Origin: Owenia fusiformis
Lineage: Eukaryota; Annelida; Polychaeta; Sabellida; Oweniidae
Reading direction: 5' to 3'
NCBI GenBank assembly: GCA_903813345.2
Contig: CAIIXF020000009.1
Location: forward strand, 23,027,759 to 23,091,758
Length of the DNA stretch: 64,000 bases
Numbering within the stretch: the stretch's first letter is position 1; each line of letters opens with the position of its first letter. The position numbers and the translations under genes were made by a program. Below, piece after piece: positions 10,501 to 40,500 of the stretch. The notes beneath the pieces were generated by a model. That model saw nothing but the letters and a program-made list of their open reading frames with translations. It made no database searches and was not told the DNA's origin.

Positions 10501-13500
10501 TTATTGGACTCTTATGGCGATTCCTATTATACTATAATTATACAAATATACTAATTCCTTTAGTAACAAGTTAGCACAAGTTTATAAATGTGATATTCAG
10601 GATTGATTACTGACATTAAAAAGCAGGTTCTTCCGGTCAGAAAGAAAAAGAGGTAGAAACCAGGATGAAATTGAAATGAGCTAGAGATGGAAGTACATTA
10701 ACAGTTTGCAGCAATACAAATGAAGCATTCAACTGACCCTGCCTGGCTGAATTACAATGAATATAGTTTTGGATGTGGTATAGTTTGCAAAAACGAAACA
10801 TTCAATTATTTATAAGCAATAGACCTTAATCTAATGTATGAGAAAATACTGTTCAAGACAGTATGTCAAAACATCACTACCTGCCATTTGTAACAGACAC
10901 CATGTCATATGTTACAGATGCCAACCAATGAACTCTGACCACTATACACAAACTGCCGAACACCAACTGCCATCTACTAAAAAGTTGGAGACTGACAATA
11001 TGTCACAAATTGTCCAAATTGACTAACCTAGCTATACTTGAGAACTGAGCCATTTCTTCAATAGAGAGTAAGTCATGCATCCTACTCCTGTAGTTCTCTT
11101 TCCTCAGTTGACCATCTGTAAGGGCCTCAGACATAATGAACTTAGCTGCCATGGGTGGGGGATAGAGATCCAAAATGTTACGCTCTTGGTCAGAATATCC
11201 ATGCCTACAAATATGAAATGTTTTGAATAACCTTTGAACTATACATGGTATCAATTACAGTTTTTCATGTGAAGCTGCATCTCCAATCTGCATGAAAAAT
11301 AATAATAATTCTGCATATATTACACAGGCATATCCATAAGCTAACAAGGGGGGCCCACATTTCAAATCAGAAAAAAAACTTTAGCGATTGTAATAACAAA
11401 ATTTTTTAGGGCCCTAAATCTAAAAATTGGGCCCAAATTTTGAAAATTTAAGGCAAATTTTTTGACAATTTGGCCTAAAAAGCCCAAGTAATGCCCAAAA
11501 AGGTCCACTTATTGAGGCCCTACAAAATTGTTGGGCCCAAATATTTTTCTTGGCCCACCCAAGGCAGACCCTCTGGATCCGCCAGTTTGTTATAAGAGTA
11601 TTTGGATACTAGACTTATATTGTGATTTTTGTAATTTCATCATTTTGATTGACTAGATATACATGTATACTCACCAGGGTTCAAACTGTACTATGTGAGA
11701 GTTATGAGTGTCCCAGCGTGCCGCCTGATTTATTATGAGATCATCGTGTAGTTTGTCAAGGTCTGTGACAGGCGTAGAGTCCACACAGATGTGGTTCACC
11801 AGGACTGGCTCACTGCCAAAGTCCAACACAACAGTCTGACGAAATGTGCCATAGATAATTGTCTTGAACATGATCTGAAATTTGCAATATTATCTCTTAA
11901 CTAATGGACTGACTAATTACTCAGATATGACAAATGTTACTCTATGCTATTTTCTGTAAATTTATTAGACGGATGATGTGCCACACAACACACCATGTCG
12001 AAATTTAAATTTCACTGAGTTGGAAATCCATCTGATCTTATTAATATACAAGACATTTTCTGTACATGTTGATTCAAAAAATGTGACCTTCTTATTTTGG
12101 AATGATTCAATTTTGTTGGGATCATCTTGGATTTTTTGTGTAGTAGCCCCAGCATTCAAAATATCCATGCTCTCACATTAGACCAAAAAATGTTGAAAAA
12201 ATTGAGGTCATTCACTGTTTTGCTAGTTTGATCATTTTTTAGTTACAAATAGGTCAACACATAATTTTGCACTAGTCATTTGAAAAAATATTCATAAGGT
12301 AAAACTGCATCAAACTGTACCTTTATCCTGAACACCTGCTCATTGTTGTTCTTGCCAGGGGAAAAAGTGTGATTGGTCCATTCTTGGCAGTTTTCGCTGA
12401 CTTTCTGTGCCCGCTGACTCTTCTTTGGCCCAACTGTCACTGACGCAATGGAGAAGTAAGATCTATTCGTGTCATCCAATAGCGCCACCTTGTGAACACT
12501 TTGCTGGAAAAGTATCAACTCTTTATTTGATTTTAATAGCCATTTTCTCTAATTTAGTACACATACTAAGGAACAGTATTTTGAAGGTATTCTAATTGAG
12601 AAGATACTACAAACAAAAAAGAAAGTACAATATGTAGACCCCCTACATGTATGTCTGTCCGAGTGTACTTACCCTGCTTGTGACTGTAAAAGTCCATGAA
12701 TTGTTAAAACGTTTACTAGATGTTGTAACCACTAGGTCTGTATTTACATGAACATGTACACCCTCCAAAGCATCGGTCATCTAAAAATAACAAGAGTATG
12801 GTGTCACAATGTAAACAAGGCGTTAACATGCAAAATGTCACCACTTGCCATTTGTTACAGATGCTGACCAGTGTATTATATCAAAAGTATTAACAATGAC
12901 ATGATATTTCAATTTTCTACACTTTTTAAGTAGTCGACTTTTGGTTACATTTCATAAGTTTAATTCCTCTATGATATTTCATTTTCAGTGAGTATATTGG
13001 ATCACTTACTACTTCAGTAGGGTTGGGAGATTCCAGCCATTTATTGTACAATTTTTCCACATAAGACGCCTCACCAAATTCCAGTTGCTTAGCTGCCTCC
13101 ATTTTCTCTTTACGATATTCAAAGCGTTCTTTCCATTCCTTGAGTTCTGAATCAGAATGGGCTTGTGAACACTTCTCACCCAATTTGCACATCTTGGTAC
13201 TGTAGAAACTGAAAACAAGATAACAGTGTTAAATATTAGACCAAAGAGCCTCAATTTATTGCATTTGTGTTTGTATGAAGGCAAAACGTCATTAATGAGC
13301 TAACTATGAATTGTTGCAAGATATTACCAGTATGGATCTTCATAGAATCGATATGAGATTTTAGGCATTTTTCTTTGTAAAAAAATTGCTGATGGATGGA
13401 CAGACGGAATGCATGGATAGACCTATGACAGACCGATTGTAACATATTCACATAGACCCAATACCTGATGCATGTCATGTATTCATCAGATGTGACACCT

Positions 13501-16500
13501 CTGGGTGGGGGTCTATATTTCCAGACTCTATCATCATCACACGAGACTTTCTTCTTATGTTCCTCAGTGGATACATGTTCACGTAACTTAGCTTGGCTGT
13601 CACAGGAAACTTTACAGTATTTACAGTCATATCTTCCAGTGTCAAGGTTTCCTGGTGCTTTGCATTGTGTTGTGTCTGTTAAACCTGTTAAATACAGTTA
13701 AATCTGTTTTAGTGAACACCTCTCCCTTTACCTAGAGAGAACATCCCTTCTCAGCACATACTCCACTGACTTTTGCATATAATTGCCCCTCTGTAATGTG
13801 AACACCGACCTAAGTGAACATATTTTTTTGGTTCCATAAGAGTTCACTGAACACAGGTTTTACTGTAATTATAGCAATACGATAAATTAGATCAAGCAAC
13901 TCCTAACGAGATATGAGTTTTATTCTGTTCGTTCAGCAATATCAAAGTTTGGTAACTGTCATGATATCAGTGCTTTTTGCAGCATTTACAAAATTGTAAC
14001 TGTAACAATTTTTCACTACTTGTGGTGACATAAAAATTGACAAGATCCTGACTTTCTTTCAAAAATGCTTCATGATGCTTGTTTAAAAAAGTGAAAAAGT
14101 GATTCAATATGACAATGAAACCATTAAATTAGTACATGAAAATATTGAGTTACAACAATGTGTCAGATCATGTTGTCCCAGGTATCAATTGTGTTATTTG
14201 AGTGACAGGTTGGACTCAATTGATTTTATAAATACAACCAATGATTGATTCCCTCTCACCTTTGTTCCCAATCTTCAGCATACTTTTTAGGTTATTTGTG
14301 GCCTCAACATGTGGACTTAGGTTCTTCGAGATTATTGTTCTCATCTTGTTATCTTTCAGATTCAAATTATTAGCAACTGATGTTGTATTTAGCTTACTGC
14401 TCCCAGGGGTCGCAGATTTAAGGGGGCTATTTGTATTAAGGGTGTTTTGTGTCCCTGGAGATTGCGTGTTAGCGTCATCTTCCTTTCCCTCTGGTGGGAC
14501 TCTGCCTTCCAACTCAGGTCCTCCAACTAACACATCATCATTATCATCATCACATTCCTGAAACAATGCCCCATTACTGTTATCATCAATTCTGTCAACA
14601 TTATTATTTCAGTGTAAATATTTTAATTTGAAGAAATAAGAGGCATTTAGGTATCATGATCACACTACAAATAGATTTCAAAAGAACCAGGTATGGTATT
14701 GCAAATGATTTTAGACGGTGATGTGTTGAACTAGGGTCCTAATCTAGGTCTAATTTTGGTCTAACAGTCGAATTAATAATTTTATTATCCTGGGGACCTC
14801 AATTACAGGAAAACATATAATATTTGGGATCAATGATATGATTGTCTAAGATATTTGCAATCATGCATGGTCCTTTGAAAGAGATAAATTACATATGTAT
14901 AGTCTAAAGCATTGATGATAATTACATGGTATTCACCAGGCTTATCTAAAGCAATGATGATAATTATTACAATAAATACATGGTTTTCACTAAGCTTATG
15001 TATTTGATGATAACAACAGAGGTGTTTTCCAGGCTTATCTTGAGAGCAATGATGACAATCAGATATATGTTCTTGAGGCTTTTCTAAAGCAATGATGATA
15101 ACCTAACCTGATCATCCAAAGCATTGATGACAATCCCCAAACGCTCGAACTCTCTCTTTGCTCTTGCATTCTAAAATGAAAATAAAAAATGAAAAACTTT
15201 CAAACAAAGAATGTACCAACCAACTTCCAGGTCTAAGAAATAGAATTGAATCATGCACATTATCATGTACATAGCACAGACTAATGGCTCCTTTCAATTG
15301 AAATAAATAGAAGTTATTCAACTTTCAACAAAAATAACAAAATCTTGGTCAGAGTGACTTCAACGTATTTGTATCTTCGTCAGAGTGACTTGACTTCAAT
15401 GTATTTGTATCTTGGTCGAAGTGACTTCTATGTATTTGTGGAATCATTCAAAAGGAATGAAAGGATCTAGCTTCAATAAAAATCATCAAGTAATCATTGT
15501 AATATTAATTGACTACATGAGGATCAATAATTGATCATTTGTTTTTTATAGAACTGCTGTTCAAATAATTAATAAAGAGACAACTATAATGTTAAAACCG
15601 AATGATGCAGAAACTTGTTGATTTAGTGAAATGTGGTACGAATGAAACATTTATTATACATGGAAGAAGTTTTGATAAGTTTGAACATATGGATCTTATA
15701 TACACTGTAATTTCATATAAATTAGTTTTTCTATTTATATTACGCACAACTTTTATAGTGATTTCAAAATTAACATGCAATTCTTATGATTTAAAAATCC
15801 ATGTAAGGTCATTGACACATACAACTACATAATAGAATAGAACTTTATGCATATTATTTTTACTATACATATGGTGGGTTTTAGGACATATATGGTGTGT
15901 ACCTGTGGGTCATACTGCAACCAGGTGGTTGTTGTCTTGTAAGCCCCTACAAAGTCTTTGATGTTGCACAATGCCTTCACCTGTCTGCTATATGCCTTCT
16001 CATTATGACAGTCTATCGACAAAACTGAAACATACATGTAGATGTAGTATCAATCATGATGTCTTGTGGAAAACACCTATATTAACACTGATTTATGTTT
16101 TAGAGGCACTTTCTCTATTATTTCATCTTAATTCAATACATGCCATTAACATGTGAAATGTCACCACCTGCCATTTGTTAAGGATGACAATTGTCAAAGG
16201 CAGACCACCAAACATCAACTGCCAAACACCATCCACAAAAAGTAAAAGGCTGTAACAATTTGTCACCAGTTATGGTGGTGACATGAAAATTGTAAATACC
16301 AGTAATTGTACCCTCACAGAGTGAATAGACTTACTTCTTTCTAAAAATGAAGTAATCTTGAACTATGTAAAGTATCTAGAGATCTAAAAGCTTTAGAAAT
16401 TATTTGTTCAAACAGACCGAAGTCAACAATCACTCTTCCAAAAAATGTCTGTTTTATTAGCATAGGAGGGTGCAGAGGGATAAGCAGTTCTAAATGGTTT

Positions 16501-19500: not shown

Positions 19501-22500
19501 CATGTTCCATAACCCAATTTTATAAACAGGCCTCATTTGCCATTGGAATGGATCTCTCAATGTTCGCTTGTGTTTTATGAGTATTCTCTGAAAGTTTGGA
19601 TCGAGTAACTTCAATGATATTACCGTAGTTTTGAAATGATGATGTTGAACTTATGTTTAATTGAAAAAACACCATTTTGACGATTTCAAATTTTACTTCG
19701 CGAATGTGCGGCACTAAGAAAGCATGTGCTCATGATTGTTCACGTGATCACATCCTGCAATTTGATTGGAGATTATATAATGGGGAATCCCTGAATACTA
19801 TATAATATGAAAGAATTATAGGAGCTACTCACTTCTTCTGGCCTAAGCCTAAAGTCCATTGGCCCCAGGAACGTGTACAAAAAGATTGAGTCGAATACCA
19901 AGTAAAGAGTTACTTTGAAGGAATGTCAATGTAACAAAATGGATGAACTTCCTGGATAAAAGTTTTTTGTTTTCTTGAATTAAACATACGTATTAGTCAT
20001 GTTACGGATTATTATCTGGCGCAAAGTTAGACAATATAGTCTAGCTTCTAGAAATGCTCTCGGTTTGGAATTTGATTCGTAAATGAAGTTGCAATTCATA
20101 TATTTAGCCCTTCTCTTTTGTTACATTGACGAAAATCCGTTATATTACCGATGTATGTTACTTTGACGACTTACGTCACTGTAACAAAATGTCATTTGTT
20201 TATCTTGGATTGCTTCTAGTTTGGCTAATAAAGTGTGTGGCCTCTTATATTTTGATGCTTCTCTGCCATAGTATTTTCAAAAAGATAAACATGACTGAAA
20301 TTCTTTAAATTACAAGAGGGCACAGGCTTATTGCACAAAAAACTAAACCATCTATAATACAAATGTCATTCATGTACAATACAGCAATATGAATATACTT
20401 TTCCATATATTATTGCACAATGGTCTCCTGATTTCTTATTTTTGGGGTTCTACTAACGCAATAAAGCAGTGAAATGGGCTATAGTCTGTTGAGTCAACCT
20501 CAGTGAATTCTATTGTATTTGGCCTAATGAAATATGTGGCCTCTTATATTTTGATGAAATTAACATGGCCAAAACTCCTCAAATTACAAGTGTATTACAA
20601 GTGTATTACAAATGTATAACTGTCATTAATGTACTATCTTAATATAATTTTCCTTATATTTTTGGACAGTAGTCTTTTGATAACTTATTTTTTAGGTTTT
20701 ACTGAGGTCAATAGAATAGTGAAATGAACTGTAAGCCCAGGCCTAGTGTATCTACAGTATCGAAAAACCATGAAATGTTGCACTTTAGAATTAAAATATC
20801 CTGAAATTTCACTAAAAAGAAAAATCCTGGGCATAGCATTGGGTAATGTCCAAATGAGAAAAATAGGGCAACTTCATGTAGCAGGGGGGTTATTCCGAAC
20901 ACCTAAATCAATCATCTATTGATACTTCATTCTTTTATTTGTTAGATTGATGGTATATATCATTTTATGGTGTCTTGAACTATCCTCTACTGCCATTGCT
21001 ATGTAGAGGTACTATTATTTAACTCAATGATTTGCTTTCCATTGTTTGTTACCTGTTCAAAATTATTTTCCCCCTGTTTGGATGCTCAAGACCAATTGAC
21101 TTATAATGTAAATAAACCTCTAAATGGGTCGCTGTTACAGATTGTCCTAAAGTCCTAAATATAAACCTAGTATTGCATTTTTATATTGGAATTTGTTCGC
21201 TAGTAGTAGGCCAAATGTTGTAATTGAAGTTTAACTTTGGTCAATATATTTTTGTCTGCTCTTGGGGTGTGATTGCCAAAGTACATTTTATATAATAGTT
21301 AAATGTTTAATGAATTCAGAAATCTCTACACATTAGGTATACATGTTGGAACAGCCTACTAAAGTAACAATAATTCTATGTGTTGTCTGTATTTTTTATA
21401 GCTCATCACACACGTGTTTTGGTTTGCGGCCAACTAGGCATGTATAAAGGAAAACTTATAGAGGTGTCCAGGGTTCTCAAATGTAAGTAGACTTTTTTTA
21501 ACACTAAATCATAAGAATGATGTACCTGTTATGACTTCTTGGATTCTTGAATTTTCAATGTTCACAGAATATTTGATGGATCTTTATCATAATTTGACAT
21601 CTTGCTTGTAATAGACTGAGGCTACCTTATGACAATTTTTAATGCATTTGAGCAAACTATTGCTGAGATAATATGTGTAAAAAAGTGTGACCTTTTTTGA
21701 GAAACCCGATATTTATCTTTTTTGTGATGATTTCATTTTCTCCTTTCAGCCAAAAAGAAGTATGATGTGTTTTATGAAAATGGATTTCGGAGCTTCTTAG
21801 TGCCATTTAAATCAGTGGTAAGTACTTTTTACCAGTCAGGCAAACATCAAATGTTAAATATGGCCTATAATTATCCCAACGAACGAAGTTTGGCAAGGAT
21901 ATAGTGAAGCAGTCTATCTTTCAGTCCATCCATCCGGAAGATAACTGAAATACTAGTAGACAGATTTTCTTCATATTTGGTCGAAAGATGTATTTCTTTC
22001 AAGATGACCGCCACTTTAAAATGGGGGAAATTTTTGCAAAAATCACAAGATTTTCACTTTAAACCAAAGTAAGAAATATATCACATTTTTAAGTATATTC
22101 ACATCTATACTTTCACATATATTCCATGTTTTTCACCCTGACCCTTGGAGGGTCAGAAGAACAGGAATTTGCATTTAACTTGCGATCTTTCTGATCTATA
22201 GCTTTATCATACTCAAATGAAAGGAATTTAGAGTAAATTTCAAATGTTTTAACGTTTTTCTGATTCAGGCATCAGAAAATTCAAAAGGCTGCCAAATGTG
22301 GGATTTCGCAAAATATTCCCAATCTCTTTAAAGTATGGCTATAGTATACTCAAATTGAAGATATTTTAGAGTAGACCACAATTATGGTATTGATTTTCTG
22401 ATTCATGCCACAGAAAAATCAAAATGCCTGCCTTTAGTGGGAATTAGCTATAATTTAGAGATCTCTTCAAAGTATGGTTACATTTAGTTACATGTCTGTG

Positions 22501-25500
22501 TTATTATCTGCAAATCTAGGGTAGAGTAGATGGTTAATATGATATCAGACATTATATAGATTAATGGATATTTTTACGTGGGGATTTTTGACTCCATGGA
22601 GTTGCCATTTTCTAGTTATGATAAGTGAAATCCAATATTTTATATGTCCAAAGTATGTGTCCAAGCATAACTTAAGTTAGAGGTCATAAAGGCTGTAAAT
22701 GATATACGGTACTTCCCATATTTGGCAATTCAAGTCAGTTGAACTAGGAAAAATGATGCCCCAGAATCCCCAGTTTCTCTGTCTATTTTATTTTAGGTGT
22801 CTTATTTCAATTTGAACTTTCAAAAAAATATGAAAAATATGTTATTGTTAGCACTGGACAGGTTTTTGTACCCCGCTTTAAGGAGCTACAATAAAGCGCT
22901 GTGAAGTTGCCCAAATTAAATCTCAAACTTTCAAAAATCCTGAAAATATTAAATAGTACCAGTATAAGTACAGTAAATAATAGATGTCAAGACACACAAG
23001 GCCTGTTTGATGAAACTAAACTAACAGATGAATTTCAAATCATTTTGTAAACCTGTCAAAGTATGACCTACATGTTTAAGCCTTAAATCACTTAAATTGA
23101 AGGTTGTTTAGAGTAAATCACAATTATTGTATCATTTTTCTGATTCAGACTTTTGAAAATTCAAACGAATCCCTAAGGTGTAGGAATTTACTTAAATTTA
23201 AAGATGTCTTCACACTATGATTTAAATTGTCCTTCATTCATGTCATTAGATCACAACTATTGTATTGCCTGTATGATTTGTGATTTCATAGTCTATTTAT
23301 TTATTGTAGACGCCATATAGAAACATAGCTTCTGAAGAAGTAGATGTACTAGATGAAAGAGGTATGTTTGTATGAATGAATTATAAAATGATTGCTATTT
23401 CTGTTAATATTTGATTCTACCAGTTTATCTCACCCTATTATTTGACCCAAACTAACCACCTGGAGTCCATTATTGTACCGTTAGTAGTAACAAACCTTCG
23501 CAATTCGTAAATATTTAAAAAGTTACGAATGAGTTATACGAATTTGTAAAGTTACGAATGGACCATTTTTATAATGCTTTCGTAAATCATTCGTAATTTT
23601 TCAATTGTTTGGAACTAGATTTATGAATGGGTTGACGTCATATTTTATCATTGTCAGATAGTACATCAAAGATGGTTTATCAAAGCAATAAAACCAAAGT
23701 CATACAATAAGAACTTTTTAAAAATTAACATTCCATGAAAATACTAATTTACAGATATAGAAATAGGTTGATAATAAGTTGATTGCAATGTTGCCCTTTG
23801 TGTTCTCTGATTTCAAATGACAAAACGTCACAAATCACAATATAAATGACTAAATAAGAAGCCCTTCACAAATTTACATAATGTTCGGAAGTACTATTAA
23901 ATCTACGAATGAAAGCAAACATGACATCATTATTTTCGTAACTTTAAGAATCTTACAAAAATACAACTTTGTGAAATTTGCAAATTCAACAATAAACTTA
24001 CAAACGTTTGTTACTATGAAAAGTACAAAAACGTGTCCCTGGTGGTTAAACTGAGAACTAACTACCAGCATCTAGGTAATTTTCTTAATTCTAAATATAC
24101 TGAATGTTAAAGTTGTTAAAGTGATTGCTATTTCTATAAAAATGCATATGCTTCTTTCCTTTTAAGATACTGGTTCTGAAGAAGGTTCTGAAGAAGAAGG
24201 TTCTGAAGGTTTTGAAGACAGAGACAAAGTTGAAAAGAAAGATGAAAGAGGTACATTTTTATGAAATGAATTTTATTATGATTTCCATTTCTGTTAAACT
24301 GAGAACTTACTAATAGCATCTAGGTAATTTTCTTAATTCTAAATATACTGAATGTTAAACTGTTAAAGTGATTGCTATTTCTATAAAAATGCATATGCTT
24401 CTTTCCTTTTAAGATACTGGTTCTGAAGAAGGTTCTGAAGAAGAAGGTTCTGAAGGTTTTGAAGACAGAGACAAAGTTGAAAAGAAAGATGAAAGAGGTA
24501 CATTTTTATGAAATGAATTTTATTATGATTTCCATTTCTGTTAAACTGAGAACTTACTAATAGCATCTAGGTAATTTTCTTAATTCTAAATATACTGAAT
24601 GTTAAACTGTTAAAGTGATTGCTATTTCTATAAAAATGCATATGCTTCTTTCCTTTTAAGATACTGGTTCTGAAGAAGGTTCTGAAGAAGAAGGTTCTGA
24701 AGGTTTTGAAGACAGAGACAAAGTTGAAAAGAAAGATGAAAGAGGTACATTTTTATGAAATGAATTTTATTATGATTTCCATTTCTGTTAAACTGAGAAC
24801 TTACTAATAGCATCTAGGTAATTTTCTTAATTCTAAATATACTGAATGTTAAACTGTTAAAGCGATTGCTATTTCTATAAAAATGCATATGCTTCTTTCC
24901 TTTTAAGATACTGGTTCTGAAGAAGGTTCTGAAGAAGAAGGTTCTGAAGGTTTTGAAGAAGTGTGGGCTGTGAGGCTACTTGGCACTCTAGAAGTGAAAG
25001 GTATGTTATAATGGATGAATTATTATCCCATTAACTGTAATATTCCTATGACTCCTAGGTCTAAAGCTTGCTAATTTTTTTATTTTATTAAATGGCAGCC
25101 TTTCTCACCGGCATGTAGCAATTATAGTGATCCTGATATACTTTATTGAATTATTTCGAAGTTAGACGTGTGTTCCAGATTTTATTATACAGCTGACCAT
25201 CATTTCAATGTTATATTGTACAGTATGCAGACAAATTGAGATTAAGCCATCGGAGTATTTGTTTCACGCATACATGAAGCATTACGCATTCAAGCGTCAC
25301 ATTTATCATTAAACCAATAACTCAATATATGCCCTTGTACACCTACCACCTACCATTCTTTTGTATTCTGTACAAATAAGCTATGACTGCAGTCTATTCA
25401 GTGTTGCATTTTGATTGTTCCTACCTCTCTAGACGCAGTGGAAAGTGACGATGTACTTACAACTCAAATCATATATAAACTGTGTACATGTAGTCACAGA

Positions 25501-28500
25501 GAATATTTAGTGTGTAATATATTCAACAAGATCGAAGATTAGTTCATTTATTGGATATCAGGATCGCTACATGCCAGTGTTTCTTGTTGCGGAAGATTCG
25601 CATTTTCACTACTCCATGTGAACACAGTACCTGCATGGTACTATTTATTTAAATTGGAAGCTTTGTATTGCACATTCTGTATTTAAAAAGGGTACATTTG
25701 ATTGGTAAAGTTTCAAAGTATTTCCAAATTTAAAATCCTCTTATTAAAATAATTTAACCTTTCAGACAACAAAAACATCCAGAGGGATATTGATATCATG
25801 CTAAAAACTCGAGCCAATGGAGATATCTTCATGGCCACACCTTATTATCTGAAATATGAGAGGAAGGGAAAAACTGTAGAACTCCTGGATGGAGAAGTTG
25901 TCGTAGAGCAGCACCGGGTGCCTGAGATAGAGCTGAAACCTCATGCTACCAAAAAGAAGTAAGTTTGTTTCTCGTGATTAAAAATCCACAGTGTTGATTT
26001 TCAGAGTTATCAACATGGACGTAATACAGTGTTGATAGGGAATTTTTAAATAAAATTTGCAAATAAACTAGATGCCCGTAGAAATAATATTGATTTTTGT
26101 CATTAAATATTCATAATTCGCCAAAAGTAACACCAGATTTTAAATGTTCATGTACTGTACTCATTAAATATCACTTAGAAATGAGTGGGATAAATAGTGT
26201 AAATAAAGTAAAAGCTGTTTTTTAACAAATTATGAAAATTCCCTCAAATGTTCACTGAATGCTGCTCTTCGAATGAAATAATTGTGCGGAAAAATTGGTC
26301 CATAGGAGATTATAACAAAATCTAATGTTTCACATGAGTGCTATTCCTCACCTTTTTCATTCTTAAAGGCTTGTTCTGTATTATAATGAGTTTCTTGAGT
26401 TTCACTTTCCACACATTTTAAAAATCAGTTTGGAATTTTCGTCTAGTGCACTTTCTTGTCAACATGTCATCAATTCTACAGTATCTACAGTATATTTTAA
26501 ATATATTTTTATTGTATATTCTAATGTTTCTAATTGTTTGACTTCATTTTCTCAGGCTGCTTGCTGTATGTCAACAATACAATAAAAAAGACCCTAGAAT
26601 ACACTACAAAATCACACTTTATGACTGTGATGCACAATCAGCAGAGGTAATGAATATAACCTTTTCTTAATGCTAGAGTGAGAACCAATAGGATACATCT
26701 CATACCGAGTGACCCTAGAAGAAGCTAGATAATATTTGATGAAATTTTTCTGAAAATAATGTACTAAAATGTCAATTTTTGAAAATATTATTATACACTG
26801 TATTTATTTCTTCAGACTGCATCCAAATTTTTTCACTATTGTATTCCTCTTTAATTTAATTAACATTTTAACTAGTAGCGAGATAAATAGTGACAAAATA
26901 ATAAAGCTATAATAGTATATGTCTCACAATTATAACATACATATGATGATGTGTGGTGTAAACTGGTCACAAAACAGCGGGCCGATATAAGTTTTGAAAA
27001 GCCCACACCCGCTCACTTTCTGATTGGTCAAGGTGCTGGGACTACTAGGCGCGTACTAACCAATTGACTGAAGATAAAAATATGTTGGTAATTTTCCTCA
27101 ACACACATCACCATTTATTTCATGTAAGAACACTTTAATTCCAAATAATTTGATGTAAATTTATTTATTAATGCTACTTATTTATAAATTTGTGTCCCTA
27201 AAGTGCTTAAGTTGTAGGTTTAGTAAAATCGCTTGCATAGTTTTATCTTCAGTTGATCTATAAATGCGTGTGCAGTTATACATGAGGTCAAAATGACTAG
27301 GACTATTAGATAAGAAAACGGTACTCTCTCACCAATCTACATCATCATAGGTGTGTTATAAATTGTTATAAATGCCTACTGGGCCTTGGTGAGATTGCTT
27401 GCAATCTTGATGTCTAGTTTTTTTATGTTTTTACTATCAATGTTTTATTTATTGTGTATCTGATCCTCTTAACTTCATTTTTATTAATACAGATATGCAA
27501 AGTCATAAATACTGATGCTGACAGGAATGCTGATACTGATGATGTAAGTTGATAAACTGGTAATATATAGCATATTAATAATGGTAAAGTTGGTTTTGTC
27601 TTATATCCTAGAATCATCAGATATTTTTATATTTAATTGATATTTTCTCTTATGTTCATCATACAACATATCAAGGAGCTACATGTATCTTAAACTGTCT
27701 TTCAACAGACCATGAATGTTTTATTACTCTTTAGAATGAACATTTTGCTGCCCATCGTGAGTAAACTATTAATAAATACTGGTTGTTTATACGACAATGG
27801 GACTAGGTCATCTTCTCGAAAAAGAACACAATGTTACATAATGGCAGTTATATGTCAAATAAGGATACCTAGTCTTATTTCCAAGTGAATGCCCTATTAG
27901 TCCACATTTGTCTAGTCACCATGTAGAAGGCTGGCGTATATTAGTTTCTCTTCTTTTTTTCTTTTTCAATTAAGATCTCGCCCATTAGAGATTTTGATTT
28001 ATTTTTAAAATTTTCAAAAAACAAATATTTTTTATAAATAATATATTCTGCATAGAAAATATCAAATGTAAAGAGATTTCTCTTGATAGTAGTCTTAAAA
28101 CTTCGAGGTTGGAAAGTGAAAAAATGTTATTCCTCCAAATCCACTGGAATTCGAGATAGAGTTCTCAAAAATCTTCACAGTCTTAACTCAATCAGTTTTT
28201 GACAAAAACCATTTGCATCCCTTAGTTTCTCTTGTTGATATTGATATGAATAATGAACCTGTCTGCAAATCAATTGTACACCCCATACAATGTGAAAATG
28301 TAAGAGGTGGGTTTTGACAAGGAACAAACAACAAAAATGCATAGCAGGTACTTTTTTAATAATGATGACATTGTAAAATTGATGTAAATTGGTCGAAATG
28401 TTTGTTATTGTTGTTTGTGCTTTTAAAAAACGTTTCCCTGTCACTTTGCATAGGGAGAGTTTATTCATAAATGCCATTTGCAGATTGTTGTCCTATTTTA

Positions 28501-31500
28501 TTACTTTGCTTTTGTTAGTACCATAGACCCAAGGTTCTGTTTGGACAGAAAGTAGTCTAGCTACAAACCTCTGTGACCCCCTCCCATCTACTTGACTTAA
28601 TACCTCTAATAATGAGTGCCTAGGCACATGTGCACGGAAGTGTAAGTAGTTTGAAAGAGCCTATCAGATATTTTTTTCTGTTCTTAGCTAGTGTATACTC
28701 TAAGTAGACAAGTGCATGTTGAGGAAATTAGCTGTGAGAAGAATGCTACCATGAGTTAGATAAGTATAATTTATACGATATTTATTGTTGAATATACTAT
28801 TTTAAATGCATTATTGAAAACAAATATGAATAAATATTAAATCTATATTTGTTAATAGTTTAGAAATTGTAAATGTAGATTAACAATATGCATTTTGTAG
28901 CTTGTGGTACAATTATACAGTAGATATAAAATGTCAGGTATCAGAACGGGGTGGGCGGGGGTGGGCAGATTTTCTGGATTTTTTAAGGTCACATGACCAT
29001 GACATCATCCGGGGGATGATGTCATGATGTCATGATGTCATGGATGTGTATGAATATGAATCATAACGAAATAACAAGTTGAAACATGTTCCACAATGGA
29101 ATTTTAGATGGTATAGCCCACTAATGAGATATAATCAGCGCCCTTATAAGGTGGAATTACAAGATGGCGGGCCCGGGGCTTTCAAAATCTCTGTTTTTAT
29201 ATTTCTCATGAGAGATAAAGATGAGCAGGAGATAGGATGGGGATTAGGAGATAAATTAATTGGATGGGGCTTTCATCTTAAATGTGTAAAAATGTTAGAT
29301 AAGATGCGCATATCATCATTGTTATCTTAAATGGGTGAGAAATGTATTTCTTGGACTGAATGTCTTTAGTAAAGTTCAAAATAATTCCCTTTCATATTAT
29401 TTTAAATTTGGTATAATCCATTAACAGTGTTTACAATTCTACTTTCAATATTAACCCAAAGAATCAATAATCCTATTGAGCTGGTCAAACAAATACTGTT
29501 CGCATAAAAGGAAAGAGAACTGGATTTTGGATTAAATATGTGTACAGATGAAAAGGTTTATTTATTTAAGTCCTATATTGAATTGACCGTTGAAAAGGTT
29601 TATTTATTAAAGTCCTATATTGATCATACTACTCTACTTGATTTCAACAATAATGGTCTTTTAATGTAATAATTGAATGTTGACATTTAATTATGTCATC
29701 ACAATGTTAATCCTTCATATTCTAGAACATCTTTTGTTTAATGCGTTAATCTTTTTTTCTGGAATAATCTAGAGTTTATGACATCATCATTTCATGACTT
29801 AAGTTTCTTAAAAAATACATGACATCATGCCCTAAAATATAATTTGACATCATTTTTACCATATAAAAATCTCCAAAAAGTGTGTGGACCATTTATGAAC
29901 ATGGTAGTAAACAACTGGTGATTTAGACATATCTGTATGCTTGTTAAGGTAAGTCCTAAATATTTGTATCATATTCTGTACATGATATTCAATAACACAA
30001 CATCTAAATGCAGTAGGATCATATATGTTCCAATTTCTTTGATAAGTTGTTATATATGAATTGTATTTTATGTAAATAATTTCATAGAAATTGAGGGAAT
30101 TGTATTTTATGTAAATAATTTCATAGAAATTGAGGGTAAATAATTTAGAAGAAATTGAGAGAATTTAGCATTGTGACATGGTCGAATACTTTAATTATCA
30201 TGTACAAATATTCACTGATTTACAAGTATTGTTCAAAAATGGGATGGGCTTTCATGTTAGATGTGTAAAAAATTATTAGATATGATGCGCATGACATCAT
30301 AATTTGAGACGTGGGGCTTTCATTGTTTACTTTATTAACATTTATTTCATTAGTTAGCATTATTATTAGCATATGTTAGCATCTGTTAGCATTATCATTA
30401 ACATATGTTAGCATTATTTAGCATTAGTTTTACAAATGTTCACTGATGTTCACAAATGTTCACTGATGTTCACAAATGTTCACTGATGTTCACAAATGTT
30501 CACTGATGTTCACAAATCCCCCTCCTCCTCCTCCTCCTCCTCCTCCTCCTCCTCCTCCTCCTCCTCCTCCTCCTCCTCCTCCTCATCCTCCTCCTCCTCC
30601 TCCTCATTCCATCCTCATCCCTATTTTCTCCTCATCCTCATCATTCCATCCTTATTTAGCATTAGTTTTACAAATGTTCACAAATGTTCACTAGTATTGT
30701 TCACAAATGTTCACTGATGTTCACAAATGTTCACAAATGTTCACTGATGTTCACAAATCCCCCTCCTCCTCCTCCTCCTCCTCATCCTCCTCCTCATTCC
30801 ATCCTCATCCCTATTTTCTCCTCATCCTCATCATTCCATCCTTATTTAGCATTAGTTTTACAAATGTTCACAAATGTTCACTAGTATTGTTCACAAATGT
30901 TCACTGATGTTCACAAATGTTCACAAATGTTCACTGATGTTCACAAATCCCCCTCCTCCTCCTCCTCCTCTTCCTCCTCCTCCTCATCCTCCTCCTCATT
31001 CCATCCTCATCCCTATTTTCTCCTCATCCTCATCATTCCATCCTTATTTAGCATTAGTTTTACAAATGTTCACAAATGTTCACTAGTATTGTTCACAAAT
31101 GTTCACTGATGTTCACAAATGTTCACTGATGTTCACAAATGTTCACAGGGAATGAGGAAGAGGAGGGAATGAGGAAGATGGAATTAGGAGGGGGATGGGG
31201 GATGAGGATTGGAGAATGGGGAGGAGGATGGAATGATGAGGATGAGGAGAAAATAGGGATGAGGATGGAATGAGGAGGAGGATGAGGAGGAGGAGGAGGA
31301 GGAGGGGGATTTGTGAACATCAGTGAACATTTGTGAACATTTGTGAACATCAGTGAACATTTGTGAACAATACTAGTGAACATTTGTGAACATTTGTAAA
31401 ACTAATGCTAAATAAGGATGGAATGATGAGGATGAGGAGAAAATAGGGATGAGGATGGAATGAGGAGGAGGAGGAGGAGGATGAGGAGGAGGAGGAGGAG

Positions 31501-34500
31501 GAGGAGGAGGAGGAGGAGGAGGAGGAGGAGGAGGAGGAGGAGGAGGAGGAGGAGGAGGAGGAGGAGGGGGATTTGTGAACATCAGTGAACATTTGTGAAC
31601 ATCAGTGAACATTTGTGAACATCAGTGAACATTTGTGAACATCAGTGAACATTTGTAAAACTAATGCTAAATAATGCTAACATATGTTAATGATAATGCT
31701 AACAGATGCTAACATATGCTAATAATAATGCTAACTAATGAAATAAATGTTAATAAAGTAAACAATGAAAGCCCCACGTCTCAAATTATGATGTCATGCG
31801 CATCATATCTAATAATTTTTTACACATCTAACATGAAAGCCCATCCCATTTTTGAACAATACTTGTAAATCAGTGAATATTTGTACATGATAATTAAAGT
31901 ATTCGACCATGTCACAATGCTAAATTCTCTCAATTTCTTCTAAATTATTTACCCTCAATTTCTATGAAATTATTTACATAAAATACAATTCCCTCAATTT
32001 CTATGAAATTATTTACATAAAATACAATTCATATATAACAACTTATCAAAGAAATTGGAACATATATGATCCTACTGCATTTAGATGTTGTGTTATTGAA
32101 TATCATGTACAGAATATGATACAAATATTTAGGACTTACCTTAACAAGCATACAGATATGTCTAAATCACCAGTTGTTTACTACCATGTTCATAAATGGT
32201 CCACACACTTTTTGGAGATTTTTATATGGTAAAAATGATGTCAAATTATATTTTAGGGCATGATGTCATGTATTTTTTAAGAAACTTAAGTCATGAAATG
32301 ATGATGTCATAAACTCTAGATTATTCCAGAAAAAAAGATTAACGCATTAAACAAAAGATGTTCTAGAATATGAAGGATTAACATTGTGATGACATAATTA
32401 AATGTCAACATTCAATTATTACATTAAAAGACCATTATTGTTGAAATCAAGTAGAGTAGTATGATCAATATAGGACTTTAATAAATAAACCTTTTCAACG
32501 GTCAATTCAATATAGGACTTAAATAAATAAACCTTTTCATCTGTACACATATTTAATCCAAAATCCAGTTCTCTTTCCTTTTATGCGAACAGTATTTGTT
32601 TGACCAGCTCAATAGGATTATTGATTCTTTGGGTTAATATTGAAAGTAGAATTGTAAACACTGTTAATGGATTATACCAAATTTAAAATAATATGAAAGG
32701 GAATTATTTTGAACTTTACTAAAGACATTCAGTCCAAGAAATACATTTCTCACCCATTTAAGATAACAATGATGATATGCGCATCTTATCTAACATTTTT
32801 ACACATTTAAGATGAAAGCCCCATCCAATTAATTTATCTCCTAATCCCCATCCTATCTCCTGCTCATCTTTATCTCTCATGAGAAATATAAAAACAGAGA
32901 TTTTGAAAGCCCCGGGCCCGCCATCTTGTAATTCCACCTTATAAGGGCGCTGATTATATCTCATTAGTGGGCTATACCATCTAAAATTCCATTGTGGAAC
33001 ATGTTTCAACTTGTTATTTCGTTATGATTCATATTCATACACATCCATGACATCATGACATCATGACATCATCCCCCGGATGATGTCATGGTCATGTGAC
33101 CTTAAAAAATCCAGAAAATCTGCCCACCCCCGCCCACCCCGTTCTGATACCTGACATTTTATATCTACTTTATACTTTCAGATCCACAAAATTTCTTATT
33201 TTTATACCAAACACGTGAAATGTTTTTAACAGTTTTTAGCATGTGCACGGAAGTGGAAGTAGTTTGAAAGAGCCTATCATATTTTTTTCTGTTCTTAGCT
33301 AGTGTATACTCTAAGTAGACAAGTGCATGTTGAGGAAAATAGCTGTGAGAAGAATGCTACAATGAGTTAGATAAGTATAATTTATATGATATTTATTGTT
33401 GAATATACTTTTTTAAATGCATTATTGAAAACAAATATGAATATTAAATCTATATTTGTTAATAGTTTAGAAATTGTAAATGTAGATTAACAATATGCAT
33501 TTTGTCGCTTGTGGTACAATTATACTTTCAGATCCACAACATTTTTTATTTTTAAACCAAACATGTGAAATGTTTTTAACAGTTTTTAGCTTGTGGTACA
33601 ATTTTACTTTCAGGTGCCCCCAAACTCAATTTCCACCAAAGTTCAGAGAGAAGGATCCATACTGCAAAATCTGGAAGGCGCAAGCACACATGTCCTACTT
33701 GTTTTGGCAGTTTCATATCATTGCCAAAACACCTCAGAAATACACACCAAAAAGACAAAAACTATAAATTGCCAGCCAACTGGAAAGAAGATTTCAAACA
33801 CGAATATACAAGAACAAAGAGAGTGGAAAATCCAAGAATGTATAAATATAAGATGTGTCAGAAATGTAGCAAAAGCTCCCTGAGGATGGATAAGCACAAG
33901 TGTGCCACAGATAAAACAAAAGTGTCAAATAACAAACTCGAACCAGCATATTTGGATAAAATTGCTGACTTTGAAGCCTGGATAGTTTCACCCTCGGGTG
34001 GTTCTAAAACCAATGGACTTGCAAAAAGATCCTCACATAACATTAAATTCATCTTAAAATGTGTGTGTGATGGAATAACCAATCAGTATGATGCGGGCAA
34101 CCAAAAGCTCGTTGAGGAGAAGTTTGTCACACCAGCTATGAACCATAAATTTCATAACATAAAAGAAACTTCAACCATAAAATCATATCTTGAGCATTTG
34201 CAGTTGTACCATCGCTTTTTATATGTTGAGAAACGCTCAATAAGCCAAGAAATGTGGGACTTATTTCAAATTCAAAACAGACTTTGGTGTAACACCATGC
34301 GAGCTGCAGGAAGGAAAAGGAATATTGCCAAAAAAGCAGCTGACCAGGAGAATCTGCCCACACCAGAGGAATTAAGGGCATACTGCAATTCACCCTTTGT
34401 TTTAAATATTAAATCAACTTTCACATCGGCTAACATAACAATTAAAATGTTAAGCCAAATAAGGAACTTCCTTATAACTACCATTGCCATATCAAATGCA

Positions 34501-37500
34501 TGCCGAGCCGGGCCACTCATAAATTTAGAAACTTTGCATGTTCAGCATGCTAGACACCACGATGGACACTATGTGTATCATGTAAGTCTGTATTCTTTAG
34601 TATTTTATTCTAAGGGTTATTTTGCTATTACTAAAACGATGTTGCTATATATTGGATCGTTTGATGCAATGCATGATGTTTGATGCTGTTAACTACCAAA
34701 TCTTTTCCTTGATAAGCCTATGGGTGTTTATTTGAAAGGGGGTGTGTGAAAAAAATTTTCCCCTCTATATAAAGGCCCATGATCATTCTTCTGGAGGACT
34801 TCTTAATAATTGCTCATTGGGCGAAAACATGTCATGCTCATGCCTCATGTTGCGCTTCTTAAATGTTCTCTGTGCACACCAATCATCCTTTAAATTATAA
34901 ACTGAAGCAAGGTAATTTTACTGTATCCTTATTGTTATGCAAACTTGACATGATGCAGCAAAGGCATGACCTAAAATGGTCACATATTGGTCAACGCACA
35001 TGATACTTTTGCGTGAGTATGAACGCAATTTGTCAACTTTATGATCGATAATATCACTCGTAATGAACTCAACAAACACTCAACTCTCTTAATAAAGGCC
35101 CATGGGCTTTTATTAAATCTTATTTCAAATAAACTCCCTGTGCAAAATAAATGCCAGCTCATAAGCGAGAAAATGTCGTAATTGTCTTAGAAAATGTAAT
35201 GTTTTAAAAATATTTTGTAGGTTATAGAAGGCCAAAAAACGTTCACTAGTAAAGGGGCAGCACAGTTGACCGTAGATGCTGATACACACGAAATGGTCAA
35301 ATCATTTCTCCGGTTAAAGCACAAGAAGTTTGAGGGGGAGTCAACATTTGTCTTTTCTGCTATTAATGCTGAAATGACTCAGCTTGGGACGAGTTCCATC
35401 TCGCAGGCTATAAGCAATCAGCTAAAGGATGCCCAGATTGGCTATGAGAAGAGTGCAAACTGCACATTATTAAGAAAGTTAACAGTGTCTGTGGTATGTC
35501 ATGCCTGGTCATCACGAACATGGGATGAAGTGTGGGGGGGGTGTCAGTGCAAAATCATGTTTCTGGTTTAAGCAGTTAGTGGAAATTAAGTATAAACTTG
35601 AAGGGTTGTTGTTAAATCAACCTAAAGGCCAATGTAATCACCAACATTTGAATGCGTGTCAGATTCTAACAGCTTCTCAGTCACAATAGCCCCCAGATGG
35701 TATACTCCCCTCCATAAGTTTGGCAACCTTAGCTCCCCCATTGAACTACGTGTTAAAGCCTCTTTACGTATGAATTTTTATTTACTTATCCGGCGATGAA
35801 ATAACTTATAATATTGATGGATATGTTACTTGACTTTATTTCCAATACCTCCAAATTTTCTCAATTTTTTCCACATTACAATAGGTCAAAAATTGATGAT
35901 AAATTTGATGAATTTTTGAAAATCGTCATTCTCATGACACCTTGCTAAACACTTTACAATTAAACAGTCCCATTTCCTTCCCATTGACTCCCATGTTAAA
36001 GAAAGGTCTAACTTGAACTTGAAACCTGATGACCACTGTTAGTTATCATTTTGTTTTTTAGATGTGTAACACCTTCCCTGAGGAATTGAATAGGCAAAAA
36101 CTCGCCGACCACATGAAACATACAGTTAAAATACAAAAAGATGTATACGAACTGACGGACCAAACCAAAAATGCGGTGCATGTGTCAAAACTAATAGGAA
36201 ACACAATTCTTGGAAAGGTTCACAAAGGTAAAAACCTGTGTTACAATAATACGTGGTGTATAAATTTAACATCCCGAGGATTTAACGGGTGTAGTAAGTG
36301 CAATAAGTCTGAATATATCATTGGTCAGAAAGCAATAAAACATGCTTGAAACTGTAATAGTTTGTACCCCCATTCCAAGCAAAATAGACTGATTATTTAA
36401 TGAATGAATAGCTGTGAGATTGACCAATGCATATAATATGTGTACTTTTAAATGCCTGCTTGTAAGACATGTTGCAATAGTCAAGTTATATGACTATAAG
36501 GCATGTACTTTGAAAGACTGACAAGCTATATGCCTATTTCAAAAGGCAATGGGGAAGAAATGGCTCAAAGGTATCCCAAGGGGATGGGCGTTTAGTACCG
36601 GAGTTTCTGGCAAATAGGCTCATTGGGGTTCATTTTGCACAGGACCTTATTTGAAAGAGTTTTTGATAAATGCCCATGGGGGTATTTTGCAAAGGGCTTT
36701 TGTTTGAAAGAGTTTGGGTGTTTATTGCCAGTACCCCCATGACTGTGAGGTTACTTTGAGAAAAAAAATTCAAAAATAATAAAAAAAACTCAAAATTACC
36801 TCACATTTATCGGGGTAATTGCCTGCATTTTTATTATTATTATTTTTGATGTTATGAGTATTGGCTACCAATTTTTTCAATTTTTCTTCTCAACATGTAT
36901 TGTAATGACTTCAGTATGAATGAAATGTCCCTTGGTGTTCTGGTCCTGGATTGTGATATTGGTTCTCGATTGGAGGGGGGAGGGGGATGTTAGAAATTGT
37001 TTCTTTTAACGTTAGATTATGGTTTTGGGATATATAGGGTCTACTTTTCTTATTCCAGATTTACACTTACAGTTTGCTTTTCTTGTTGGGTTTCTTTAAA
37101 GTTTTTAGTCACCCTTCCCTTTGGCAGTTGTGCTTATATATTCTGGCGAAGAGGCAAGTGGGCATTTATTCGAAAGAGGGGTGTATGAAAAAGTGAGAGT
37201 ATTGTAAACAAACCTATTAGCCTGACCATTCAGTATTTGTATAATATTTTTAAGACCCAGATGATGTGATGAGCGAAGTAGACGAAGAAGACCAAGAATG
37301 TCATGATGTGATGGGCACAGTAGATGAAGACCCAGAATGTGATGATGAGGATACAGTAATTGAACCTAAGATAAAACTAAAAAAAATTTAACAAGGGCTT
37401 TCATATCATTATTGATGCTGACAGGATATATTTAATCATTTCAACTCTTCAAAGGCAACCTCTAAATATCACTATTATTTTTAGGCAATCAAATAAAAAC

Positions 37501-40500
37501 ACAATGCCCCTCCCCTAATGCCACTTATATGGAGCAAAATTCAATAAATTCTCAAGTATCTCAGACTGTTTCATGCAATCATGCAAATAATAAATGGGTG
37601 ATAATGGTCTACAGAATTGTGCTACAGAGTCAAAAAAGCACACAAGTTTTGGTATCCTAATTGACTTAATATTAAATGAACCTCTTCAAGTAGACAATAA
37701 TGGAGAGATAGATATAGAGTGTAAAAATTAATGGAACATCTCTTTAGGAAGAAAAATAACCAATAATTTATTGTTTCAGACAATGGTTCAGAAGAGCAAA
37801 GAAGATGTAAAAACCTTAAGCTCTAGAATTGAACCAAAGGTAAAAGTAAAAAAGATTTAAATGGATCTTCCATATCATTCGGACTGACCATTCAAATGAT
37901 ACTACATTGATAAAGGTTTACATGTTTGGCCTACCCTGTACACTGTAGTTATTATGACATCATTTATCATATTAGAATTTATCATGATATGAACATTATT
38001 GATTTTATCCATTAAACATGTTTAAGTCAGGTTGTATGAGTATTAACTTTAACTCTTAATGATACATTTTTGTAATATAATGTAAAATATTTTCAGGAGA
38101 ATGCATACTCAACACTCATAGCACATAATAAAGATGAAAATAAAAGATTTTTGGAGACACTCTTTGGTGAAAAAAAACAGGTATTACATTTGAAAATCAA
38201 TTGTTGAAATATAAGGTTTAAATCAAAGCCCCTTTTGTTTTTATGAGTAATATATGTGTAAATAGTACTATGCCCAATATATACAAGTATAAAGTTCTCC
38301 CCATTTAAATATTTTAGCAAAAATAACCAATTTATTGTTTCAGACAGTGGAACAGAGGATGGTAAAAAGACCAGTAGTAGATGAACCATCTCCTAGGCAG
38401 AGGGAGAGAAAACAGGTAAACAAGTAAATGCACACTGACTGTGAACAAATTATGCAAGAAAAGAGATGAATGATCTATTTCAAGAATAACAGGGTGTTCA
38501 GTAAATAAGGTGAATGGGTATGGTATTTCGTTAGTATTGTTCCAAACATCATTATATTTGGTAAGCATATACCATAGACATTTCTAAATTGTTGCATTAA
38601 AAATATTAGTTCTAGCATTTGATTGGTTGAAAATATGGTCACCATAGCAATTGAAAAGTGTGGGTACAGACCTGGAGCACTTGTGCTAAAAATATTATCC
38701 CTGTACTTTATGTGGAGGAATTTTAACTGTATACTTAATGTATGATATACAATGTATTAACAAACAAATATGAGTGGAATATAAGGGGTATTGACCCATT
38801 CACCTTATTTACGAACACCCTGTACATGTAGGGGCATGAGTTGATCACGATTTTCATAATTTGTATTCTATTTGAATTCATTGTTGAAACTAGAGCTTTA
38901 AATCAAAGCCCCTTTTGTTTTTATCTATTTAATGAGTATAATATAAATTAACTGTAAATATTTGTAGCATACACACTTTACAAATATGTCCAATATATAA
39001 AAAGTTCTCCCCATTTATTAACTTCTACATCAACTACTATTTTTAGAAAAATAACCAATAATTTATTAAATAACTTAAGTTCATTAACATCAGAAAAATA
39101 TGTTTTATTTTCGACGTTTCACTATTCATCCAAATAGCTTTATCAAGATTTAAAATTCAAAATAGAAGTATACAGTTACATTATGGCTAATAATTGATCA
39201 ATACAATACCCCAGTAACAATGAACTAAACAATGACAATAAACTACGAACTTTAGTTATTTAATATATTACCAGAGTGATGAATCAACACAGAAAAAATT
39301 TATTGTTTCAGAGAATGTGCAAAAGAAAAAGAGAAGAAAATGAAGAAAATGATTGGGAGCCAGGAGATGATGATGAAGATGATGATAATGATGAAGATGA
39401 TGATAATGATGAAGATGATGATAATGATGATTGTGTTGAAGATTATAAAGATCAAAAGAAAACAAAAACTGGTAACCAAAGAATTAATATTTCTACATTA
39501 TAAGTTTCAAAAGCATATTTATTTATAATATTTATCCAATCACCAATGAGGTTTTAGGTACAATTATCAGCAAAATAAGGAAATAGTAGCTTGGACTAAG
39601 TAAACATAAAAATAATAATCTAGGTAATGGACTCACATAATTATCTATGTTTCTGAACAAGAACTTTATACATTTGGACCAAGTTAAATTTCCTATTCCA
39701 TCTAATTATTGTATGCATAATTTTCTATTTCAGAACCCAAATTAAAATGTATGGAATGTGGGAAAACATTTAATGTAAAATGGCTCCTTGACCGCCATGT
39801 ACGAACACACAGAGCGCCAACCTTCAAGTGTGAGATCTGCACCAAATGCTTTGGAAGGGCTGACATTCTGAAGAGGCATATCAAAAATGTTCACGCCAAA
39901 GGAAGAGTATTTCATTGGTAGAAACGTGAGTCTGGATCTTCCCAACAAATGTATTGATTTGTCACATCTGTTTCTCATTAGATTTAGTTAAACTCGCAAT
40001 ACATTTCTGCTTATTTACAATTAGCAAACACATAAAAAGTGAAAGAAAGGCTAATATTGTCAGAATCATTTGCTTAAATGAAATATCATTTGATAGACAC
40101 TCCCTTGGAGTTTTTAAAATTCTGTTTCATCTACCTCACCTGGGTGAGTTGTTTTTGTTTTATTTGATTATTGTCATCTCTTATTATTTCAGGTTGTTCA
40201 GAACCAAGTCGTACGAAAGACTACTAGAAGACAGATAGATAGTCCTGACAGATGCTTCCTAGTCAAGTCATACCCAAGACAAGTTGTACCCAAGACAACT
40301 CATACCCAAGTTTATTTTCAGTATTATGGGTGCATATTAGGAAAACAAATTGAGTCTGTGTAATAATGTTTTTTAATGTTATGATGTGAATCAAATAAGC
40401 CTCAATATTTTTGGAATTTAGCAAATATTTTTTCTCAAAGGATTAAGCAAAGCAGTGACTCTTCTACAAATGAATCAAACAATTAACTTAGCTAGGTGCA

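Follow-up and report, generated by a model that had tools for sequence, protein, structure and literature searches.

The window analysed here, a stretch of 64,000 nucleotides, covers positions 23027759-23091758 of contig C9 in the 498-Mb assembly of the annelid Owenia fusiformis, in which C1-C4 are other chromosome-size contigs. On its plus strand (21402-39921) lies a gene for a modular protein built around a putative tyrosine recombinase. Rebuilt exon by exon, the gene comprises 20 exons that encode 990 codons and a stop (Table 1), the same numbers as those given in an initial annotation of this DNA. All 19 introns are GT-AG, the phases are compatible at every join, and neither a stop nor a frameshift interrupts the joined codons. 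The multi-exon, in-phase structure described in the initial annotation is thus borne out, but the claim that the gene is complete is not: exon 1 is entered in phase 1, mid-codon, and its open frame can be followed upstream no further than 21374. The first in-frame ATG of exon 1, at 21440, is a possible start. As had also been described, the gene is antisense to the flanking gene, which we take to be HELZ, following the initial annotation, and sits inside what appears to be a single intron, between the exons at 16024 and 44322.

The recombinase-type domain reported earlier is recognisable in exons 12-14. When compared by hhalign with nine Phage_integrase-positive sequences from the same genome, this part scored 32.8 (P 4e-4), against a maximum of 20.7 in 30 shuffles. 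In the alignment, the box-I Arg is matched by the Arg in NACRAGP, and the catalytic Lys by that in EGQKT. By eye, TLLR occupies the HxxR position, and MKH-x8-Y corresponds to the His/Trp and Tyr motifs. The domain looks like a divergent tyrosine recombinase in which the Arg, Lys, Arg, His and Tyr positions appear to be kept. The first His of HxxR is replaced with Thr in all five sequences read (the window, C319, C1:24.41 Mb, C4:27.81 Mb and C4:30.03 Mb). HxxR thus reads TxxR, and therefore the covalent chemistry (strand cleavage through a 3'-phosphotyrosine in tyrosine recombinases), if any, would be altered.

Many relatives of the gene, which together with it form a family, occur in the same genome, a point missed in the initial annotation. 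The best matches of the exon-12 product outside the window are on contigs C319 and C431 (47% identity over query residues 21-322). Contig C319 carries homologues of exons 12, 13, 14 and 20 in the same order, with matching splice borders for exons 12-14; its exon-14 counterpart is followed by acidic stretches and then by a stop-ending exon that encodes two C2H2 fingers. Counterparts of exons 12-14 are also present at C1:24.41 Mb, with the exon-12 part split in two. Over exons 12-14 the window and C319 are 46% identical, and their 444 aligned codons show 60%, 67% and 31% identity at codon positions 1, 2 and 3, with proportions of nonsynonymous (pN) and synonymous (pS) differences of 0.36 and 0.91. 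Silent sites are saturated while amino acids are held; therefore, as judged from this comparison, the recombinase part has been under long-lasting purifying selection, at least during much of the time since the two copies diverged. Such prolonged selection in turn suggests a host protein that was derived from the enzyme of a mobile element. As a separate observation, the C319 intron between the exon-12 and exon-13 counterparts (10877-11290 of the joined stretch) contains a short tandem-repeat-like segment with many matches in relatives. Another region, C1:24.33-24.34 Mb, holds repeated partial copies both of the exon-12 region and of the segment in which the exon-14 counterpart lies, with stops in the exon-12 part.

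Upstream of the recombinase, exons 7-10 encode a predicted APPL1-PTB-like domain, which the initial annotation had overlooked and which emerges from profile matches backed by shuffle controls. A 115-position profile built from five members of the family, of which two are short pieces, matched the APPL1 PTB structures 2ej8 (E 8.5e-4) and 2ela (E 1.1e-3) over profile positions 3-104, that is, over nearly the whole domain; a fifth PDB sequence listed was a hydrolase (E 0.088). In hhalign comparisons with APPL1 PTB the family profile scored 39.4 (maximum 15.05 in 40 column shuffles), the window sequence alone 25.5 (maximum 20.9 in 40 shuffles) and the family without the window 27.9 (no shuffle null of its own). 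The family profile also scored 28.5 with Numb and 15.2 with tensin. Pfam searches returned no PTB match. A PTB domain of the APPL type would be expected to bind NPxY-type or phosphotyrosine peptides. The relationship between the window module and those of three family members is supported by an hhalign score of 27.9 over 104 columns (maximum 17.05 in 60 shuffles). Single exons carry less signal: among 24 comparisons (eight queries against three relatives), 20 shuffles were exceeded in just two, those of exon 9 and of exons 9-10 with C1:24.41 Mb, and the shuffle maximum was equalled in two others. Used as a genome query, window exons 8-9 recovered, apart from themselves, no more than a decayed C206 copy and one match at chance level. 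The C206 copy (within C206:8500-18499) covers part of the exon 7-8 region and has lost 27 and 24 bases in two deletions, besides showing a one-base gap; the tandem acidic exons that precede exon 7 in the window were not seen in that interval.

Do the PTB-like and recombinase parts belong to one gene? The C319 module corresponding to exons 7-10, used as a genome query, gave 18 matches at seven places, although the window's own exons were not recovered. At six of the seven, C319 and the near-identical C431 included, an exon-12-type match lies at most about 3 kb downstream on the same strand (distances derived by hand); at the seventh, C3:1.08 Mb, there is none within 100 kb. The join itself depends on a microexon. 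Exon 12 must be entered in phase 1, whereas exon 10 is left in phase 0; the shift is provided by the 22-nt exon 11, one of three candidates that passed the splice filter between exons 10 and 12. Its donor is that of the best local match to the 22-nt exon of C319, the DNA match itself (24) being within the range of 20 shuffles (up to 29). As an alternative bridge, 28162-28306 (145 nt) was considered, but with its negative coding score and weak acceptor it gave way to the 22-nt exon. That two adjacent genes, one with the Tudor and PTB parts (5') and one with the recombinase (3'), have been joined on paper only is suggested by the 5.9-kb intron with a 4.3-kb palindrome that divides exons 11 and 12, and by the lack of a convincing second genomic copy of the Tudor-like exons. 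The recurrent position of the PTB-like module upstream of the recombinase and the phase-shifting microexon common to the window and C319 make this reading improbable.

The palindromic insertion in the exon 11-12 intron (28911-33177) has two 1.7-kb arms, reported as 100% complementary, is flanked on both sides by the 6-bp TTATAC and has AG...CT ends. Its first 384 bases have 55 genome matches, many arranged as inverted pairs about 3-15 kb apart. The insertion looks like a recent mobile element with long inverted repeats, and its AG...CT ends and 6-bp duplications are reminiscent of Polintons. An assembly artefact was judged unlikely in view of the TTATAC flanks, a nearby copy of the site without the insertion and the relatives in inverted pairs. 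The palindrome is flanked by a near-identical direct duplication (28627-28918 and 33240-33525), and the acceptor region that precedes exon 12 (33178-33613) is present in three similar copies.

The ends of the protein differ in how firmly they can be assigned. The C2H2 fingers named in the initial annotation are found in exon 20, above the Pfam zf-C2H2 cut-off (43.4 versus 25.2 bits, E 3.3e-11). The Tudor-like module that it placed at the N-terminus fares less well. A phmmer search of PDB with exons 1-2 listed seven sequences, six of them SETDB1 Tudor (E 0.045-0.08), but no single stretch was significant on its own and Pfam gave no Tudor match. None of nine comparisons of exons 1-3 with three relatives equalled or exceeded the maximum of 20 shuffles, and a whole-genome search with these exons found no convincing second copy. 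We therefore regard the Tudor-like reading of exons 1-2 as a weak one, a lead. Between the two ends, at 24167-24744, an acidic exon together with its intron is tandemly repeated with a period of 247 bp, giving in-phase protein repeats.

Codon usage was scored for 18 exons (exon 4 standing for exons 4-6, the rejected 145-nt alternative included and exon 11 left unscored), using a training set that included relatives of exons 12-14 and open reading frames of the flanking gene. The in-frame score was positive for 17 of the 18, all of which are kept in the model, and the lone negative was the rejected alternative. Taken individually, exons 2, 3, 9, 16 and 17 fail to reach P<0.05, exons 12 and 13 were scored without a null, and in exons 3 and 7 a reverse frame outscores the coding frame. 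Homologous exons, the PTB-like module in relatives, the shared microexon and the codon scores thus indicate that the exon chain exceeds chance.

Table 1. Exons of the recombinase-containing gene (window coordinates; n.s., not significant)
Feature	Position	Strand	Encoded part	Evidence and remarks
Exon 1	21402..21482	+	First half of possible Tudor-like module	Codon score P 0.03
Exon 2	21750..21817	+	Second half of possible Tudor-like module	Codon score n.s. alone; splice sites and phase fit
Exon 3	23310..23361	+	Short linker	Codon score n.s. alone; reverse frames higher
Exon 4	24167..24250	+	Acidic Ser/Glu	Leads a tandem of three 247-bp copies; codon score P 0.007, a second forward frame nearly as high
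Exon 5	24414..24497	+		Tandem copy of exon 4; chain phase
Exon 6	24661..24744	+		Tandem copy of exon 4; chain phase
Exon 7	24908..25000	+	Acidic repeat and first strand of PTB-like domain	C319 counterpart with equal exit phase; APPL1 PTB match
Exon 8	25766..25958	+	Core of PTB-like domain	Two exons in C319; partial decayed copy on C206
Exon 9	26556..26646	+	Late strands of PTB-like domain	Entry and exit phases equal to C319 counterpart; codon score P 0.052
Exon 10	27493..27543	+	C-terminal part of PTB-like domain	Codon score P 0.02
Exon 11	27735..27756	+	22-nt microexon joining PTB-like and recombinase parts	C319 22-nt exon of equal length, phase and donor
Exon 12	33614..34581	+	Finger-like Cys/His motifs (by eye), helical N-terminal recombinase part, box-I Arg	61 other genome matches
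Exon 13	35221..35493	+	Recombinase Lys strand (EGQKT), TLLR at HxxR position	6 other genome matches
Exon 14	36062..36227	+	Recombinase His (MKH), candidate nucleophile Tyr (DVYEL)	Homologues on C319, C1:24.41 Mb, C4:30.03 Mb
Exon 15	37255..37355	+	Acidic linker	Codon score P 0.02
Exon 16	37780..37839	+	Linker	Codon score n.s. alone
Exon 17	38097..38180	+	Linker	Codon score n.s. alone
Exon 18	38344..38415	+	Basic/Pro linker	Codon score P 0.017
Exon 19	39312..39471	+	Lys/Arg-rich, then acidic	Codon score P 0.0025, a second forward frame nearly as high
Exon 20	39734..39921	+	Two C2H2 zinc fingers and stop	Pfam zf-C2H2; stop-ending C319 homologue

The explanation that we favour, with some reserve, is a host gene that has captured (domesticated) a tyrosine recombinase as one part of a modular protein. 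In its favour are the rebuilt exon chain, the C319 relative with its corresponding exon order and terminal C2H2 exon, the purifying selection, the PTB-like module upstream of the recombinase, and the hhalign and profile scores of the PTB-like and recombinase parts. A number of observations weigh against it. In the profile searches for a tyrosine recombinase that the initial annotation had proposed, one of six family sequences reached PF00589 (E 0.0099), but two unrelated families, NT-C2 (E 0.0031) and LCD1 (E 0.0093), rival or exceed this match with one member each, and for the window protein Pfam, PHROGs and PDB gave no recombinase match. The C-terminal half of the recombinase (TxxR, His and Tyr), aligned alone, is not significant, its residues having been placed by eye, and an AlphaFold model of exon 12 alone was unusable (predicted local distance difference test score, pLDDT, 33). 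The PTB profile finds two designed TIM barrels with E-values like those of APPL1 (6.4e-4 and 9.6e-4), over a short repeated piece. Many relatives contain stops, and some of those on different chromosome-size contigs share introns, as a mobile element might. Finally, the gene is known from genomic sequence alone. This last point, the large insertion in the intron preceding exon 12 and the decayed partial copy on C206 would also suit an ancient gene that died recently and whose frames are intact by luck; we consider this very improbable, given 990 codons free of stops and frameshifts, GT-AG borders throughout and the intronic position of the insertion.

The distribution of relatives bears on the main rival of the host-gene explanation, namely that the locus represents one copy of a mobile element with introns, moved by its own recombinase and having the PTB-like and finger modules as cargo. 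The exon-12 product has 62 genome matches at E up to 0.01, itself included, many partial and many with stops, and this number is a lower bound; for exon 13 there are seven, itself included. Matches to exon 12, many of them broken, occur on C1-C4 and on small contigs, as might be expected of a mobile element. Moreover, long blocks that include exons as well as introns are about 74-92% identical between C319 and both C1:26.16 Mb and C4:27.79 Mb, C431 is about 99% identical to C319 in shared blocks, and the catalytic positions look nearly complete. On the other hand, 54 of the 62 matches (the window included) fall within three stretches, C1:24.3-26.2, C3:0.9-1.8 and C4:27.7-30.0 Mb, unlike the genome-wide Phage_integrase matches, which number 144 and lie on many contigs; none of those listed is at the window gene. 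The window copy is solitary and, judging by its identity to C319, old. To our knowledge, no cut-and-paste element with some 20 introns has been described, which also counts against this rival. No relative was found in a viral collection searched with the exon-12 product. We regard the mobile element as a serious but clearly less probable explanation.

If the gene is indeed a domesticated host gene, its parts may be read in order: a possible Tudor module, acidic repeats, an APPL-like PTB domain, finger-like motifs, the recombinase core, an acidic/basic linker and two C2H2 fingers. The protein would probably be nuclear. Particular DNA sites might be bound by the recombinase core and fingers, and partner proteins or modified tails by the PTB-like (and possible Tudor) modules; the whole would then act as a sequence-directed chromatin factor. 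An unlikely but more far-reaching variant is that a catalytically competent recombinase has been kept as a host gene family, with the PTB-like domain and the possible chromatin-reading module guiding it to chosen places in the chromosomes to cut or rearrange DNA, that is, programmed recombination of host origin.

The closest known parallels are the Crypton-derived DUF3504 host genes, including ZMYM2/3/4, QRICH1, KCTD1, KIAA1958 and WOC. According to the study describing them (Kojima and Jurka 2011, PMC3212892), the vertebrate Crypton-derived genes have lost the Tyr and the second Arg, captured recombinases being known there as modules without catalysis, and in animal Cryptons no further domain follows the recombinase towards the C-terminus. 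The window gene resembles the DUF3504 genes in having a multi-domain, host-type protein around a tyrosine-recombinase core. It differs in that DUF3504 was absent among the Pfam matches of the window protein (E up to 1) and in the family search (E up to 10), and in that it appears to keep the Tyr and the second Arg, has a PTB-like domain and belongs to a many-copy family; unlike in animal Cryptons, its recombinase is followed by linkers and two C2H2 fingers. Most likely, the gene works like a domesticated recombinase gene, and we do not class it as a Crypton. With DIRS/Ngaro/Crypton-type elements it shares the box-I Arg/Lys region, as aligned with same-genome Phage_integrase sequences that may be such elements, but it differs from them in its introns, in TxxR for HxxR and in its PTB-like and finger modules. 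The profile likeness to APPL1 PTB covers nearly the whole domain, but no BAR or PH domain was recognised in the window chain, where the domain is joined to a recombinase. Similarly, exons 1-2 have a weak local likeness to the triple Tudor of SETDB1, but no SET domain was recognised. A literature search, covering mostly titles and abstract openings and few subscription papers, found no description of such a combination of parts, in agreement with the earlier remark that no described gene with this order of parts was known. A family that seemingly keeps most catalytic positions under selection and carries a PTB-like adaptor would represent an independent route of domestication. It would also allow a direct test of whether tyrosine recombinases are put to use by animals on the chromosomes of their own genomes.

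As for the flanking gene, seven minus-strand stretches were scanned. Three had no match, and the others gave TPR, CCCH and helicase-ATPase matches, all below Pfam cut-offs, a combination that fits HELZ.

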